Positions 40,278 through 63,868 of a stretch of DNA of 64,000 nucleotides are shown here, piece by piece (position 1 is the first letter of the stretch; the number at the start of each line of letters is the position of its first letter). The DNA is from an uncultured bacterium (GTDB taxonomy: Bacteria > Calescibacteriota > Calescibacteriia > Calescibacteriales > Calescibacteriaceae). The stretch is from the NCBI GenBank assembly GCA_938036315.1, contig CALHPK010000001.1:1-64000 (forward strand). Reading direction: 5' to 3'. Made by a program: the position numbers and the translations under genes. Below the pieces are notes generated by a model that saw only the letters and a program-made list of their open reading frames with translations, was not told where the DNA came from and ran no database searches.

Positions 40278-42428
40278 TCAGGTTCTCTGTATATCTGTAA
40301 TATATTTGGTTGATTTAAGTTCGTTCATAACTTTTTCAACGTCATAAGAATCTTTTACCTTAAAGGCAAGTTCAATTTCGAACTTATTGTTAACTTCCCG
40401 TGAGAGAATGGAGCTTATGCCGTAACCATTTTTTCTTAAATTTTTCACAATATCTGAAATAATCTCTGGCGAATCAGTGAAGAACCTAAGTTTGCTTACA
40501 TATTCTTTCTGCTCTGGGAAACTCTGCTTGGGGATCTTTACGATTCTATCTGTCCTGAGATGCCCCAGTTGCTTGCAGTCTGCCCTGTGTATAACTATAC
40601 CATACCCTCTTGTGATATATCCAACAATTTCATCTCCTGGGACCGGAGTGCAGCAGAGAGCAAATCTTGTTTTCACCCCTTTCAAATCTCCGGTCAACTG
40701 AACTTCTCTCAGTTCTTCTTGTTGTTGATCCTGCTTTTTATCTTGATCCTCTTTTTTATCCTGCTCTTCACTTTTTCGTTCTAATATTTCTAAATTTTTT
40801 CTCACAGTACGCAGGAAATTCTGAACGCTAAACTTTCCCATACCAACATACACGAACAAATCTTCGATGCTTTTCACTTTGATATCTTCTAGAACTTTTG
40901 TAAATATTCCTTTTTCCAGAAGGTCAGAAAAATTTAATCCAAATTTTCTGAGTTCTCTTTTTATGGTGGTTTCTCCTATCTCCTTTGCTACCTGTTTATC
41001 TTCTTTTGAAATAAATTGCTTTATTCTTGACTTAGCTCTTTGTGTCACAACGAAATTTAACCAGGCTCTTTTTGGTTTTTGATTTTTTGATTTTATAATC
41101 TCAACGATATCGCCGGATCTAAGCTGGTAATCTATTGGCTGGAGTTTTCCATTAACCTTTGCTCCGACACATCTTTCACCTAACTCAGAGTGTACAGCAT
41201 AGGCAAAGTCTAAAACGGTTGCGCCACGAGGTAGTATTTTTACATCTCCCCGAGGAGTGAAAACATAGATCTCATCAGGATATATATCTTCCCCGATATT
41301 TTTTACTTCATAGTATGGAGTTTCTCTGGAAAGTTGAAGCACGTTTTTCAGCCATGAGAAGATCTTGAGTCCCGATTCTGAGATTGGAGTTCCGTCTTTA
41401 TAGACCCAGTGGGCAGCTATACCTTCTTCTGCTTCTTTATGCATCTGGTAGGTTCTTATCTGAAACTCTACTTTGTACCCTTCTGGCAAGATAACCTTTG
41501 TATGGAGAGATTTGTAGCCGTTGGGTTTAGGTATAGCTATATAATCTTTGAATTTACCCGGAATGGGTTTGAAGTATGAATGCAAAATTCCCAGAACATT
41601 ATAACACTCTCCTACTGTGTTCACTATTATTCTGAAACCTATAATATCGTATATGCTATCAATATCGATGCCTTGTTTTATCATCTTTTCCCAGATACTG
41701 CATACGCCTTTTATTCTGTTTTCTATCTTGAAATTCTCTATTTTTTCTTTTACCAAAATTTCTGACACTGTTTTCTCAACGTCTTCGATGAATTTTTTGC
41801 TCTTGGGAACTATCTCGTCTAACTTTCTTTTTATGAAATTTGCTGCATCTGGATAAAGGATTTCAAAGGCTCTATCTTCGAGCTCTGTTTTGATTTTGTA
41901 AAGACCGATTCTGTGGGCAATAGGAGCGAAGATTTTCAGAGTTTCCTCAGCTATTCTTTTTCTTTTTTCTTCTGGAAGAAATTCAATAGTTCTTATGTTA
42001 TCAAGTCTATCTGCAAGCTTTATAAGAATTACCCTAACATCACGTGCCATAAACACGAACATTTTGCGAAGATTCTCAATCTGCCTCTCATCCGCATCGA
42101 GGTTAACATTGCTGAAAGAAACCTTTGTGACTCCATCGACTAAAAAAGCTACCTCGTCACCGAAGAACTTAGCTATCTCCTGTAGTGAGCGAGGGGTGTC
42201 TTCAACGACATCGTGCAGTAATCCAGCCGCCACAGTCTTATCATCGGCTTTGAGTTCAGTTAATATCTTGGCCACAGAAAAAGGATGAACTATGTACGGC
42301 TCACCCGAAAACCTAAACTGGTTTGCATGATAGTAAGAAGCATATATATATGCTCTTTTTACAAGCTCTATATCTGGGGCGGGATGATAACTCTGAATAG
42401 CACTGCAGATGTCAGCTATTCTTATCAT
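40278..42428 (-). CDS. relA: Bifunctional (p)ppGpp synthetase/hydrolase (RelA/SpoT, Rsh)
   Basis: Rsh enzymes make and break the alarmone (p)ppGpp in the stringent response. The 716-aa protein has all domains: an HD hydrolase (YHANQFRFSGEPYIVHP, GLLHDVVEDT; about 30-180) with the HD pair retained, a synthetase domain (IYDIIGFRIIV, KDYIAIPKPNGYKSLHTKV, FQIRTYQMHKEAEEGIAAHW; about 220-350), TGS (EIYVFTPRGDVKILPRGATVLDFAYAVH; about 385-445), a helical/zinc-finger region ending CCTPVPGDEIVGYITRGYGIVIHRADC, and a C-terminal ACT domain. A Lys/Gln/Asp-rich spacer (KSEEQDKKEDQDKKQDQQQEE) precedes the CC motif. The intact HD suggests both activities. TAAATT lies 6 nt before the ATG. It is convergent with the Ig-like gene. 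Confidence 0.95.
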   Translation of the reverse strand: MIRIADICSAIQSYHPAPDIELVKRAYIYASYYHANQFRFSGEPYIVHPFSVAKILTELKADDKTVAAGLLHDVVEDTPRSLQEIAKFFGDEVAFLVDGVTKVSFSNVNLDADERQIENLRKMFVFMARDVRVILIKLADRLDNIRTIEFLPEEKRKRIAEETLKIFAPIAHRIGLYKIKTELEDRAFEILYPDAANFIKRKLDEIVPKSKKFIEDVEKTVSEILVKEKIENFKIENRIKGVCSIWEKMIKQGIDIDSIYDIIGFRIIVNTVGECYNVLGILHSYFKPIPGKFKDYIAIPKPNGYKSLHTKVILPEGYKVEFQIRTYQMHKEAEEGIAAHWVYKDGTPISESGLKIFSWLKNVLQLSRETPYYEVKNIGEDIYPDEIYVFTPRGDVKILPRGATVLDFAYAVHSELGERCVGAKVNGKLQPIDYQLRSGDIVEIIKSKNQKPKRAWLNFVVTQRAKSRIKQFISKEDKQVAKEIGETTIKRELRKFGLNFSDLLEKGIFTKVLEDIKVKSIEDLFVYVGMGKFSVQNFLRTVRKNLEILERKSEEQDKKEDQDKKQDQQQEELREVQLTGDLKGVKTRFALCCTPVPGDEIVGYITRGYGIVIHRADCKQLGHLRTDRIVKIPKQSFPEQKEYVSKLRFFTDSPEIISDIVKNLRKNGYGISSILSREVNNKFEIELAFKVKDSYDVEKVMNELKSTKYITDIQRT

Positions 42429-60019: not shown

Positions 60020-62953
60020 ATGGGGAGGGTATCTATACTTATTTTTTCATCATTTTCTGAATCACTTAAAGATATAGTTCAATCTTGTGTTGAGCAGACT
60101 CAAAAACCTCACCAAGTCATAATATGTAGCAACAAAAAGTATCACACAAAAGACCATAAGATAGCAAGTCAGCTGAAGGAGGAGTATTCATTCATAAAGT
60201 TTATTGAAAGCAAAGAGACTTACAAAAATCCCAAAGCAGATGGATTCAAAGATTTGATCAAATTTGCAACTGGGGACTACATTCAACTTCTGCCCGACAA
60301 CATAATTATTCATCCAGAGTTTACCGAAACACTTAGCCAAATTCTGGACAAAGATTCGGAAGTAAAATTAGCCACAGGTAGAATTATATTTGCTGACAAA
60401 AAGTCAAATATCATTATCAACCAGACCTTCTGGCGGACTTTCTACTCAGCTTTCCAAAGCCTTTTTACGGACAAAATAATTGACGGAAAAGAATTTATAA
60501 AGGCATATCTTAGAATGACAAAGAATCTACCCCCGGTATCTCCTCTTTTTAGAAAAACATCTTTGAACTTTGAACTTTTCAAATCCAGAGATTTTGAATT
60601 TAAAGTAGAAACAGAGCGCTTCTTGTGGTTATATCTCCTAAAAGATGGAGGAAAAGTTTTTCTGTCAAGAAAAAATCTGTATACCTACAAGGTGAATGTT
60701 TCCGCTCCAGTTGAAATAGACGCCCAAGTTGAATCCGCAATAGAACGATACAATCTCATCTCTGACGAGTTCTTGACCGAAGTAGGAATAAAACTGAGCA
60801 AAGAGGAATCAAGAGAACTTACTGAGAATTTATTTATTGAAATGACAAATCTGATAAGAGAATGCGAAAGAGTCGGAAGGAAAGATCTTGCAGAGAGGCT
60901 CTCAAGATATACTAAAGAGTTGGTGAGAAAAAAGCAAAAGGATTCATCTTATCTCGTCTACAATAACATAAAACGTCGGAGAGAACCATTTTCAATAATA
61001 ATTGTAACGCGCAACAACGAAAGTACAATCTTACAATGCATCCAAAATATTTTAAATAACATAAGAAACGAAGATGAGGTCATTGTTGTGGATAATGGTT
61101 CGAATGACAAAACCCCACAGATTCTAAAAGATACAGCAAATAAATCGAAAAATATGAGAATATTTTTCAATGGGAAGGATTCTGGATATTCGCAATCTAT
61201 AAACTTAGGGGTAAAGAGATCAAAGAACGAATTTTTAGTCTTTATAAACCCAGATACTGTCATAACCACTCCAGATTGGCTTGAGATATTTTACAGAAGT
61301 TTAGAGAAAGATAATGTTGGAGCTGTTGGGCCGGTAAGTGAACAAGGAATGTGGAAAAACAACGTAGCACACTATACAAAAATTCCCCAAGAGATTATCC
61401 CAATTTGGTTGAGATCTTTTTACGATGGTGAGGAAATAGGAACCAAGATTCTTTCTGATTTTTGCATAGCTACAAAGAAAACCATATTTGAAAAACTAGG
61501 AGGGTTTGATGAATCCATTACCTCATATCTTTGCATTATAGATTTTTGCTTGAGGCTTCAAGAAGAAGGACTTGAGATGAAAGTCCTGCCTTCGGTATTC
61601 ATAAGACATATGCAGGGTAATACTAAGAGTAAACCAGATACAAATTCTGATCAAATTTCGACGCTTAATTTTGCAAAGAAACTTCTAAGAAAATACGGAT
61701 ATGGAAATGTACCGACTCCTGAAAAATGGTTTGGGATGGATTCTCCTTCTTATTACCCATACGAACTTATAAAGCTCGTTAAACTCAAATTTCTTTTTAA
61801 TTTTTCAGGCACTTATAAAGATAAGGACTTTTTCGTCAGCAGAGCGAAGATAATAAACAAGAAGCCACCCATTTCAGTCGTTACAGTGAACTGGAAGTCT
61901 TTCGAGAATATAAAAGAGCTTGCCAAGTCAATTATAGATTCAAATTATCCAAATATAAACTTGATAGTAGTTGATAATTCCGAAGATGAAGAGGAATATG
62001 AAAAGCTACGCAGTTTTGAGTCAATCTTTAACTCTCAAAGTAACGAGAAGAAAATATTTATTTTGGAAAATGAGAACAATGGTTTTGCTTCAGGATGCAA
62101 TAAAGGGATAAAGTTTGCAAAAGAAGAACTCAAATCTGAATTCATATGGCTTCTAAATCCTGACACTGTGATTCAAAGTGATACACCTTTAGAACTTCTA
62201 AGGACAATGCTTTATACAGATGTTCCGGTTGTAACTTGCAAAATGAAAATATATGGTGGAGATCTAGTTCAGTACAATGGTATAGTTGTGAGCGAAGCTT
62301 CTTTAGAAGATAGAGAAGTGGGCATACTTTACATCCAAAAACTTTCGGGAGCTAATATATTCCTCAGAGCCGATGTATTTGACAAGGTAGGATATCTTAG
62401 TGAGAATTTTTTTCTTTACTTTGAAGACGATGAATTTTTCGACAGACTCAAGGCAAAAGGAATTTTCCCAGTATATACTCCATATACATTTATATATCAT
62501 AAAATAAAGGAAGGGCATGGACTTTTAGGGAGTTCACTACACCTTTACTATTTTGTAAAGAATCTTTTGTTTTTTTTCCACCAGAAAGATAAAGAAGCAC
62601 TTTTTTATATTCTAGATAAAATCAGCGATTATTATATCTATGCATTTAATCAGGGCTTAGAAAAAAGTGCAAAAGCAATAATCCTTGGAATATATGATTT
62701 TATCCAACAGAAAAGGGGGAAACAGGACATAAGTGAAATTGAGAAAAATAAGGAGGAATGGCTACTTGAACTTTCAAAAATTGATCTAGGGAAGCCAGGA
62801 GAAAGAATGCCCGTTATAGATTTTATGAATCTTCTCAAAATTAATCTTATGGCAAATCCTTATAATCCTCAGATGTTTGAAAGATATATACAAGGACTTT
62901 CCCTGCTATTATTTGAAGAAATATCAGGTAAAGATATATACATGCTTATTTGA
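60020..62953 (+). CDS. Multidomain glycosyltransferase with three tandem GT2 domains
   Basis: This 977-aa cytoplasmic protein carries three GT-A family 2 domains. Domain 1 (about 1-230) starts VSILIFSSFSE and has GDYIQLLPDN at the DxD position. Domain 2 (about 320-560) starts FSIIIVTRNNESTILQCIQ and shows VVDNGSNDKT, LVFINPDTVI, ATKKTIFEKLGGFDES and DFCLRLQEEG. Domain 3 (about 610-860) starts ISVVTVNWKSFENIKELAKS and shows VVDNSED, NNGFASGCNKGI, WLLNPDTVI, LSGANIFLRADVFDKVGYLSENFFLYFEDDEFFDRLKAKG. Domains 2 and 3 have full NPDT and acidic acceptor motifs; domain 1 looks degenerate at the metal site. A helical tail follows. Such proteins polymerise or extend surface polysaccharides. It is preceded by tandem repeats. 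Confidence 0.85.
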   Translation: MGRVSILIFSSFSESLKDIVQSCVEQTQKPHQVIICSNKKYHTKDHKIASQLKEEYSFIKFIESKETYKNPKADGFKDLIKFATGDYIQLLPDNIIIHPEFTETLSQILDKDSEVKLATGRIIFADKKSNIIINQTFWRTFYSAFQSLFTDKIIDGKEFIKAYLRMTKNLPPVSPLFRKTSLNFELFKSRDFEFKVETERFLWLYLLKDGGKVFLSRKNLYTYKVNVSAPVEIDAQVESAIERYNLISDEFLTEVGIKLSKEESRELTENLFIEMTNLIRECERVGRKDLAERLSRYTKELVRKKQKDSSYLVYNNIKRRREPFSIIIVTRNNESTILQCIQNILNNIRNEDEVIVVDNGSNDKTPQILKDTANKSKNMRIFFNGKDSGYSQSINLGVKRSKNEFLVFINPDTVITTPDWLEIFYRSLEKDNVGAVGPVSEQGMWKNNVAHYTKIPQEIIPIWLRSFYDGEEIGTKILSDFCIATKKTIFEKLGGFDESITSYLCIIDFCLRLQEEGLEMKVLPSVFIRHMQGNTKSKPDTNSDQISTLNFAKKLLRKYGYGNVPTPEKWFGMDSPSYYPYELIKLVKLKFLFNFSGTYKDKDFFVSRAKIINKKPPISVVTVNWKSFENIKELAKSIIDSNYPNINLIVVDNSEDEEEYEKLRSFESIFNSQSNEKKIFILENENNGFASGCNKGIKFAKEELKSEFIWLLNPDTVIQSDTPLELLRTMLYTDVPVVTCKMKIYGGDLVQYNGIVVSEASLEDREVGILYIQKLSGANIFLRADVFDKVGYLSENFFLYFEDDEFFDRLKAKGIFPVYTPYTFIYHKIKEGHGLLGSSLHLYYFVKNLLFFFHQKDKEALFYILDKISDYYIYAFNQGLEKSAKAIILGIYDFIQQKRGKQDISEIEKNKEEWLLELSKIDLGKPGERMPVIDFMNLLKINLMANPYNPQMFERYIQGLSLLLFEEISGKDIYMLI

Positions 62954-63001: not shown

Positions 63002-63868
63002 TTATTTTTTTGATTTTTTAGTTCTTTGTGTTTTCAGTGTTTTTTCCTTCTTTTGTTCTGCCCCGGATATCTTTTGCCTTCCCGGTTTTTTAGTTTTAAC
63101 AAGTTTTTTGTCTTGTTTCTTTTTTATTCTGCTATCCTTTTGCTTTTTTGAAACTCTCTTTTCCCGAGTTTTTCGAGCCCGAGGTCTTAAACCACTCTCA
63201 CCTTCATACTCCTCTTCAACCGATATATCTCCCTTCCCCTCTTCCAGAATCTCCTTCTCTATCTCCTCTTCTATTTTTTCTGTTATCTCCTCTGGAATAG
63301 GTTGATCAATATCAAGGTCTCCTTCTTCTACCTCTTCTATTTCTTCCACTTCCTCGCTCTCCTCACTTCTTCCTTCATATTTTTCAAAACCTTCTTCATC
63401 TATCTCATTTTCCTCCTTTTCTTCTTCTTCCTCCTCTACCTCCATTTCTTCTTCGCTTTCGCCCATAACTGCGGATTCAGGGGAAACATAACCAACCTCG
63501 TATTTATTCAAAAAAAGTCTAGAACTTCTCTCCTCAAACTCTACCTTCTGCTGACAGTCGATACAGTACTTCACATAAGGTATTTCCTCTAACCTTTCTT
63601 TATCTATCTGTACTCCACAAAGTTCACACACACCGTATCTTCCGCTTTCGATTTTATCCAGAGCTCTCTCTATAAGTTTCAATGTTTCTATATCGATTGA
63701 AGATGCAATACCATATATACTTTTTATCTTTTCAATGGATGTCAGGTCCATAATATCTAGTTTTTCCTCCTCCTGCTGAACGGGTAAAGATGAATACTCT
63801 CGCATCCCACTTATAATCAACTTCTTTAAATTCTCAAGCTTTCTTTTCATTCTTTCCTCAAAAGTCAT
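63002..63868 (-). CDS. DksA/TraR-like zinc-finger protein with long acidic and basic tail
   Basis: The first 125 residues of this 288-aa protein resemble DksA-family transcription factors: a helical N-terminal part (FEERMKRKLENLKKLI), then LKLIERALDKIESGRYGVCELCGVQIDKERLEEIPYVKYCIDCQ with a four-Cys zinc site (Cys81, Cys84, Cys102, Cys105). DksA binds the RNA polymerase secondary channel and works with ppGpp; a relA/spoT gene is in this window. Unlike normal family members, which end near residue 120-150, this one continues with about 90 residues that are almost all Glu/Asp (137-224) and then about 60 Lys/Arg-rich residues (228-288, KKKQDKKLVKTKKPG). The tail is a likely disordered polyampholyte. 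It may contact nucleic acid or RNA polymerase. The last 132 bp of the window contain nothing else I can support. Confidence 0.82.
   Translation of the reverse strand: MTFEERMKRKLENLKKLIISGMREYSSLPVQQEEEKLDIMDLTSIEKIKSIYGIASSIDIETLKLIERALDKIESGRYGVCELCGVQIDKERLEEIPYVKYCIDCQQKVEFEERSSRLFLNKYEVGYVSPESAVMGESEEEMEVEEEEEEKEENEIDEEGFEKYEGRSEESEEVEEIEEVEEGDLDIDQPIPEEITEKIEEEIEKEILEEGKGDISVEEEYEGESGLRPRARKTREKRVSKKQKDSRIKKKQDKKLVKTKKPGRQKISGAEQKKEKTLKTQRTKKSKK

Follow-up and report, generated by a model that had tools for sequence, protein, structure and literature searches.

What might an RNA polymerase (RNAP) factor of the DksA type do with a long tail whose charge is split into an acidic and a basic half? 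The question is raised by a gene at positions 63002..63868, minus strand, of the 64,000-nucleotide stretch of DNA analyzed here (the window), which comes from an uncultured member of the Calescibacteriaceae (Candidatus Calescibacterium and relatives), a family of hot-spring bacteria. The initial annotation took the product for a DksA-like protein with a normal zinc-finger core, and this was borne out: the open frame occupies exactly the annotated interval and encodes 288 amino acids (aa), four full-length homologues in the family support the whole gene, and residues 1 to 115 (63524..63868, minus strand) form a DksA-type core with a coiled coil and a zinc finger. PF01258 (DksA/TraR C4 zinc finger) matches residues 76 to 110 (E value, 2.2e-12; 47.2 bits versus a curated cutoff of 24.9), and this match and the family alignment place the four zinc-finger cysteines at C81, C84, C102, and C105 (63554..63628, minus strand). 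NCBIfam DksA models match the core far under their equivalog cutoffs (NF033459, 62.2 bits versus 105; TIGR02420, 44.2 versus 115.5). AF2 predicts a coiled coil plus a globular domain for the core, to which E. coli DksA and P. aeruginosa DksA2 were matched in the PDB with a probability of 1.00 (for 4IJJ, probability 1.00 and TM 0.70 by target).

In E. coli DksA, D71, D74, and A76 are functionally important residues. They align with the coiled-coil tip motif DIMDLT (residues 38 to 43; 63740..63757, minus strand), where D38 and D41 correspond to D71 and D74, and T43 takes the place of A76; D38, D41, and T43 are invariant in all five homologues. Two functionally important acidic residues are typical at the tip of such secondary-channel factors (PMC4598747). 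A domain search of the 288-aa protein returned no match to HARE-HTH (PF05066), PF01272, or PF03449. The source genome holds one PF01258 gene; in another family genome (G001), the family profile gave two extra weak matches beside the full-length gene.

The initial annotation had allowed that close relatives might lack the tail or that an assembly fusion had created it. Searching for homologues with the same tail recovered the protein at full length in all four other family genomes, which are separate assemblies (Candidatus Calescibacterium nevadense EM19, Bacterium HR19, Calescibacterium sp. SKYB43, and bacterium BF2.bins.44), at 42 to 47% identity overall; the five genomes span three genera. 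We therefore reject the idea that misassembly or a frameshift fused a DksA gene to an unrelated acidic/basic frame and give it practically no probability. Also counting against an artefact, there is no in-frame stop, and the tail has more synonymous than nonsynonymous changes. The tail is genuine: it extends a known factor, is conserved, and is specific to the lineage.

The genes nearby offer no clue to function, because the neighborhood in the source genome (a glycosyltransferase and lpxK) differs from that in the relatives, where an M23 peptidase gene lies upstream and tatC and trpS lie downstream in convergent orientation. A promoter and terminator scan of the locus found neither. The window encodes, at 60020-62953 (plus strand), a 977-aa protein with three family 2 glycosyltransferase stretches in a single chain, and the TatC of the relatives (L034:5895-6701, minus strand; equivalents in L032, L033, and L035) is lengthened at its N terminus by a stretch rich in Glu and Lys.

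The tail comprises the 173 aa past residue 115. Its acidic block spans residues 116 to 224 (63197..63523, minus strand; 109 aa), of which 46% are D/E, and has a net charge of −42; its basic block spans residues 225 to 288 (63005..63196, minus strand; 64 aa), of which 47% are K/R, has a net charge of +25, and leaves about half of the acidic charge unneutralized. The acid-then-base order first described for this tail thus stands, while "almost pure Glu/Asp" overstated the composition of the acidic block. Gly and Pro occur within the blocks, and tail lengths differ between homologues. Across all five proteins the acidic block is 98 to 114 aa long with a charge of −42 to −49, and the basic block is 51 to 69 aa long with a charge of +20 to +25 (in the four relatives, −43 to −49 and +20 to +24). 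The charge fraction is 0.54 to 0.63, the approximate kappa is 0.36 to 0.41, and in each homologue the charges are more segregated than in all 200 shuffles.

Such a tail stands out from its own proteome, as judged from a 785-kb sample of the source genome (684 open reading frames [ORFs] of at least 80 aa, chosen greedily without overlap and not curated as genes), in which E and K are common residues. The protein holds the most acidic 50-residue window of the sample (−28; runner-up, −17) and ranks second for the most basic (+19); it alone among the 684 ORFs has both a window of −12 or lower and one of at least +12. The most basic window of the sample (+21) belongs to an ORF with a Lys-rich C-terminal tail of the GKGGGKPMATKKAAAGKKK type (L148, 2682-3752, plus strand). 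Beyond the family, we surveyed 386 genomes with the family profile, together with named records. The matches listed supplied 77 distinct DksA-like ORFs, with the longest open frames included, and five more were added. Among these, the acid-then-base tail is confined to the five family members and absent from the 77 other DksA-like proteins, in keeping with the earlier remark that such a tail is not a known feature of DksA/TraR. Some of these other proteins (e.g., L008 and L112) resemble ours in combining a C4 DksA core with a short or medium acidic C terminus (net charge, −18 to −29), but none has a basic block. No relevant paper on a DksA with an acidic tail or a C-terminal extension came up in a literature search. 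Since the sample is that of the matches listed, the split-charge DksA architecture is rare there rather than proven unique.

Is the tail under selection? Nei-Gojobori estimates for the closest pair of relatives (L004/L005) gave dN 0.015 and dS 0.245 for the core, 0.069 and 0.608 for the acidic block, and 0.266 and 0.423 for the basic block, whose ratio of about 0.6 makes it the least conserved part. By these values the acidic block is clearly constrained, and the basic block swaps letters quickly. Neutral simulations, in which the number of amino acid changes was matched to that observed, gave a mean acidic charge of −35.8 (SD, 3.2) against the observed −47, with 1 of 2,000 runs as extreme, and a mean basic charge of +12.5 (SD, 3.9) against the observed +20, with 76 of 2,000 as extreme. 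For this single genome pair and a simple mutation model, both blocks hold their charge beyond neutral drift.

Within the acidic block, I, L, V, or M recurs at every fourth position across 17 residues (191 to 207) in all five homologues. Shuffled acidic blocks reproduce this i,i+4 stripe in 0.3 to 1.4% of cases per protein, values that do not multiply because the five proteins are related. In the AF2 model of the window protein the core is confident, and the stripe overlaps a confident tail helix at residues 193 to 211 (pLDDT about 82 to 84), so that we place a conserved helix at 63236..63298 (minus strand); a second tail helix (238 to 257) is below confidence, and the rest of the tail has a pLDDT of about 42 to 63. 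The SKYB43 homologue is modeled with high pLDDT as a single long helix from 180 to 293, which makes a disordered arm less than certain. The striped helix is common to both models. AF2 tends to over-call helices in E/K-rich sequence, so the tail may be disordered, conditionally helical, or a charged strut.

The setting of the factor is also unusual. A domain search that a divergent Gre protein could escape detected no GreA/GreB (PF01272, PF03449) in the five family genomes (G000 to G004); the same search found them in 9 of 14 control genomes. The family genomes are 82 to 86% complete, and by our estimate chance absence from all five would have a probability of ~8e-5 if losses were independent. 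That GreA/GreB go undetected in five family genomes is unusual for bacteria. No delta-type HARE-HTH domain was found in the source genome either, so other such factors seem to be missing. Because no Gre protein was detected in the five genomes, the DksA-like protein may be the only Gre/DksA-type secondary-channel factor of the lineage. As for the polymerase itself, the subunits encoded at L148 6110-15675 (beta, 1,557 aa; beta′, 1,605 aa) are far larger than those of E. coli and have several lineage-specific insertions, and in a comparison centered on beta SI1 the alignment of the 1,557-aa beta is interrupted by further insertions peculiar to it.

A relA/spoT gene in the window had been offered as a functional link to ppGpp signalling. 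That gene (40278-42428; HD, synthetase, TGS, and ACT domains) lies about 21 kb from the DksA-like gene, and all five family genomes carry a single copy, so finding it in the window says little, and we set it aside as evidence. E. coli DksA contacts ppGpp at site 2 through R91, L95, K98, R129, and K139 (PMC7676912). None of the five is kept: L95, K98, R129, and K139 align with T62, L65, I96, and Q106, and R91 is likewise not retained at an aligned position that is less certain. Site 1 on the polymerase of the source genome is mostly kept (beta′ R362, K615, I619, and D622, with R417 changed to K), and its omega starts with MARIT (site 1). With RelA/SpoT in all five genomes and site 1 mostly kept, ppGpp signalling probably exists in the lineage, and ppGpp may act on the polymerase without the DksA-like protein; a link that runs through that protein appears weak.

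We tentatively favor, at somewhat less than even confidence, a secondary-channel factor of the DksA type that carries its own electrostatic arm, in which the tail would extend the action on polymerase beyond what ordinary DksA can do. As family membership suggests, the core would dock at the rim of the secondary channel and point its acidic coiled-coil tip at the active site. A long arm would leave the C terminus of the core, first acidic with one conserved helix and then basic. The acidic arm may mimic nucleic acid in or near the RNAP cleft, loosening DNA or RNA contacts as the acidic tail of delta does, and may thereby aid the release or exchange of complexes; the hydrophobic-striped helix might anchor it on RNAP, like the middle helix of SutA, and the basic end would fold onto the acidic block and restrain it until displaced by nucleic acid or another polyion. 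We infer docking, arm location, release activity, and self-restraint. Since DksA approaches RNAP through the secondary channel, tail length is the sole basis for assuming that the arm reaches the main cleft. What points to this model is the full-length conservation of the protein in all five genomes, the near-constant charges of its blocks, held beyond neutral drift, the conserved stripe modeled as a helix, and a core that keeps its fold, its zinc cysteines, and two tip aspartates, along with the undetected GreA/GreB, the lack of a delta domain, and the functional analogues delta and SutA. Counting against it are the charge order, which runs opposite to that of delta, the incomplete neutralization of the acidic charge, and the single long helix modeled for the SKYB43 homologue. 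We regard as rather unlikely the full combination in one polypeptide of a secondary-channel plug, a SutA/delta-like polyanion arm in the main cleft, and a basic restraint, in a lineage with no detectable Gre or delta and with no ppGpp site on the DksA side.

Folding back of the tail, nucleic acid binding, and condensation, all proposed at the outset, are each physically possible. The main alternative, which we consider possible but doubt, is that the basic end binds DNA or RNA nonspecifically and tethers the factor with RNAP to the nucleoid or the transcript, the acidic block acting as a spacer or brake. Every one of the five homologues ends in such a Lys/Arg-rich stretch, and precedents exist in the Lys-rich tails of AlgP, which bind DNA (PMC9239181), in the D/E repeats that autoinhibit DNA-binding proteins such as HMGB1 in cis (PMC10250230), and in the acidic C-terminal tip that autoinhibits Hfq (PMC5606850). 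Such tethering sits less easily with the pattern of constraint, however, since conservation is lowest in the basic block and better in the acidic block with its helix.

The helices modeled in the tail would suit a different, distinctly unlikely arrangement, in which the whole tail is one long charged helix (a single alpha-helix or a coiled coil) serving as a rigid strut or dimerization arm. The SKYB43 model looks just like this, and two tail helices are predicted for the window protein, but only the one at 193 to 211 is confident there, and the over-calling of E/K-rich helices, the Gly and Pro within the blocks, and the varying lengths all weigh against a strut. We give a low probability to a passive tail of a thermophile, a bristle of charges that aids solubility with no specific partner: a hot-spring lineage, a genome in which E and K are common, and a basic block that drifts in sequence agree with it, yet the protein is unique among the 684 sampled ORFs, and its acid-then-base layout and internal helix are fixed in all five homologues. 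High charge fraction and strong charge segregation generally favor condensation, and both are features of this tail, which might cluster RNAP or drive phase separation through intermolecular complex coacervation. We think this just as improbable as a passive tail, as the blocks can neutralize each other within one molecule, and related populations live at 70 to 90°C (PMC4791363), where weak attractions may count less.

If the electrostatic-arm model holds, the protein would join parts known from elsewhere: acidic disordered arms on RNAP are familiar in the form of separate proteins or subunits (delta and SutA), and here one would be fused to a DksA core. A thermophilic lineage that branches deeply and in which GreA/GreB go undetected could then be a test case for the rewiring of polymerase recycling and promoter control by charge pattern, and for how DksA-type factors work with no ppGpp site on DksA. 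Compared with DksA itself (E. coli, 1TJL and 5VSW; P. aeruginosa DksA2, 4IJJ), the protein has the same coiled coil and globular fold, the DxxD of the tip, and, as in E. coli DksA, the zinc cysteines; it differs in its 173-aa split-charge tail, shorter N terminus, Thr for Ala at the tip, and changed site-2 residues. Delta and SutA are compared with it as functional analogues, not as homologues. The acidic C-terminal region of delta (RpoE) of Bacillus, with a net charge of −47, displaces nucleic acids from RNAP, and an adjacent basic stretch compacts it, removal of which extends the acidic region (PMC7749165, PMC9136928). Delta thus also places an acidic tail of about −47 beside a basic stretch on an RNAP-binding domain, but its HARE-HTH anchor is unrelated, and its basic stretch comes first and is much shorter (residues 96 to 104). 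SutA of Pseudomonas aeruginosa, likened here by architecture alone from its description in PMC9300723, has a D/E-rich arm, a 20-residue helix whose hydrophobic residues bind the beta protrusion, and a disordered tail, and its acidic arm is proposed to enter the main cleft. It resembles our protein in the D/E-rich region, the helix of about 20 residues with a hydrophobic face, and the disordered tail; unlike ours, it stands alone without a DksA core, and that description reports no comparable basic block. The autoinhibited D/E-repeat proteins HMGB1 and UBF1 likewise join an acidic block to a basic nucleic acid-binding part in cis (PMC10250230), but they are eukaryotic, and their basic part includes folded DNA-binding domains.
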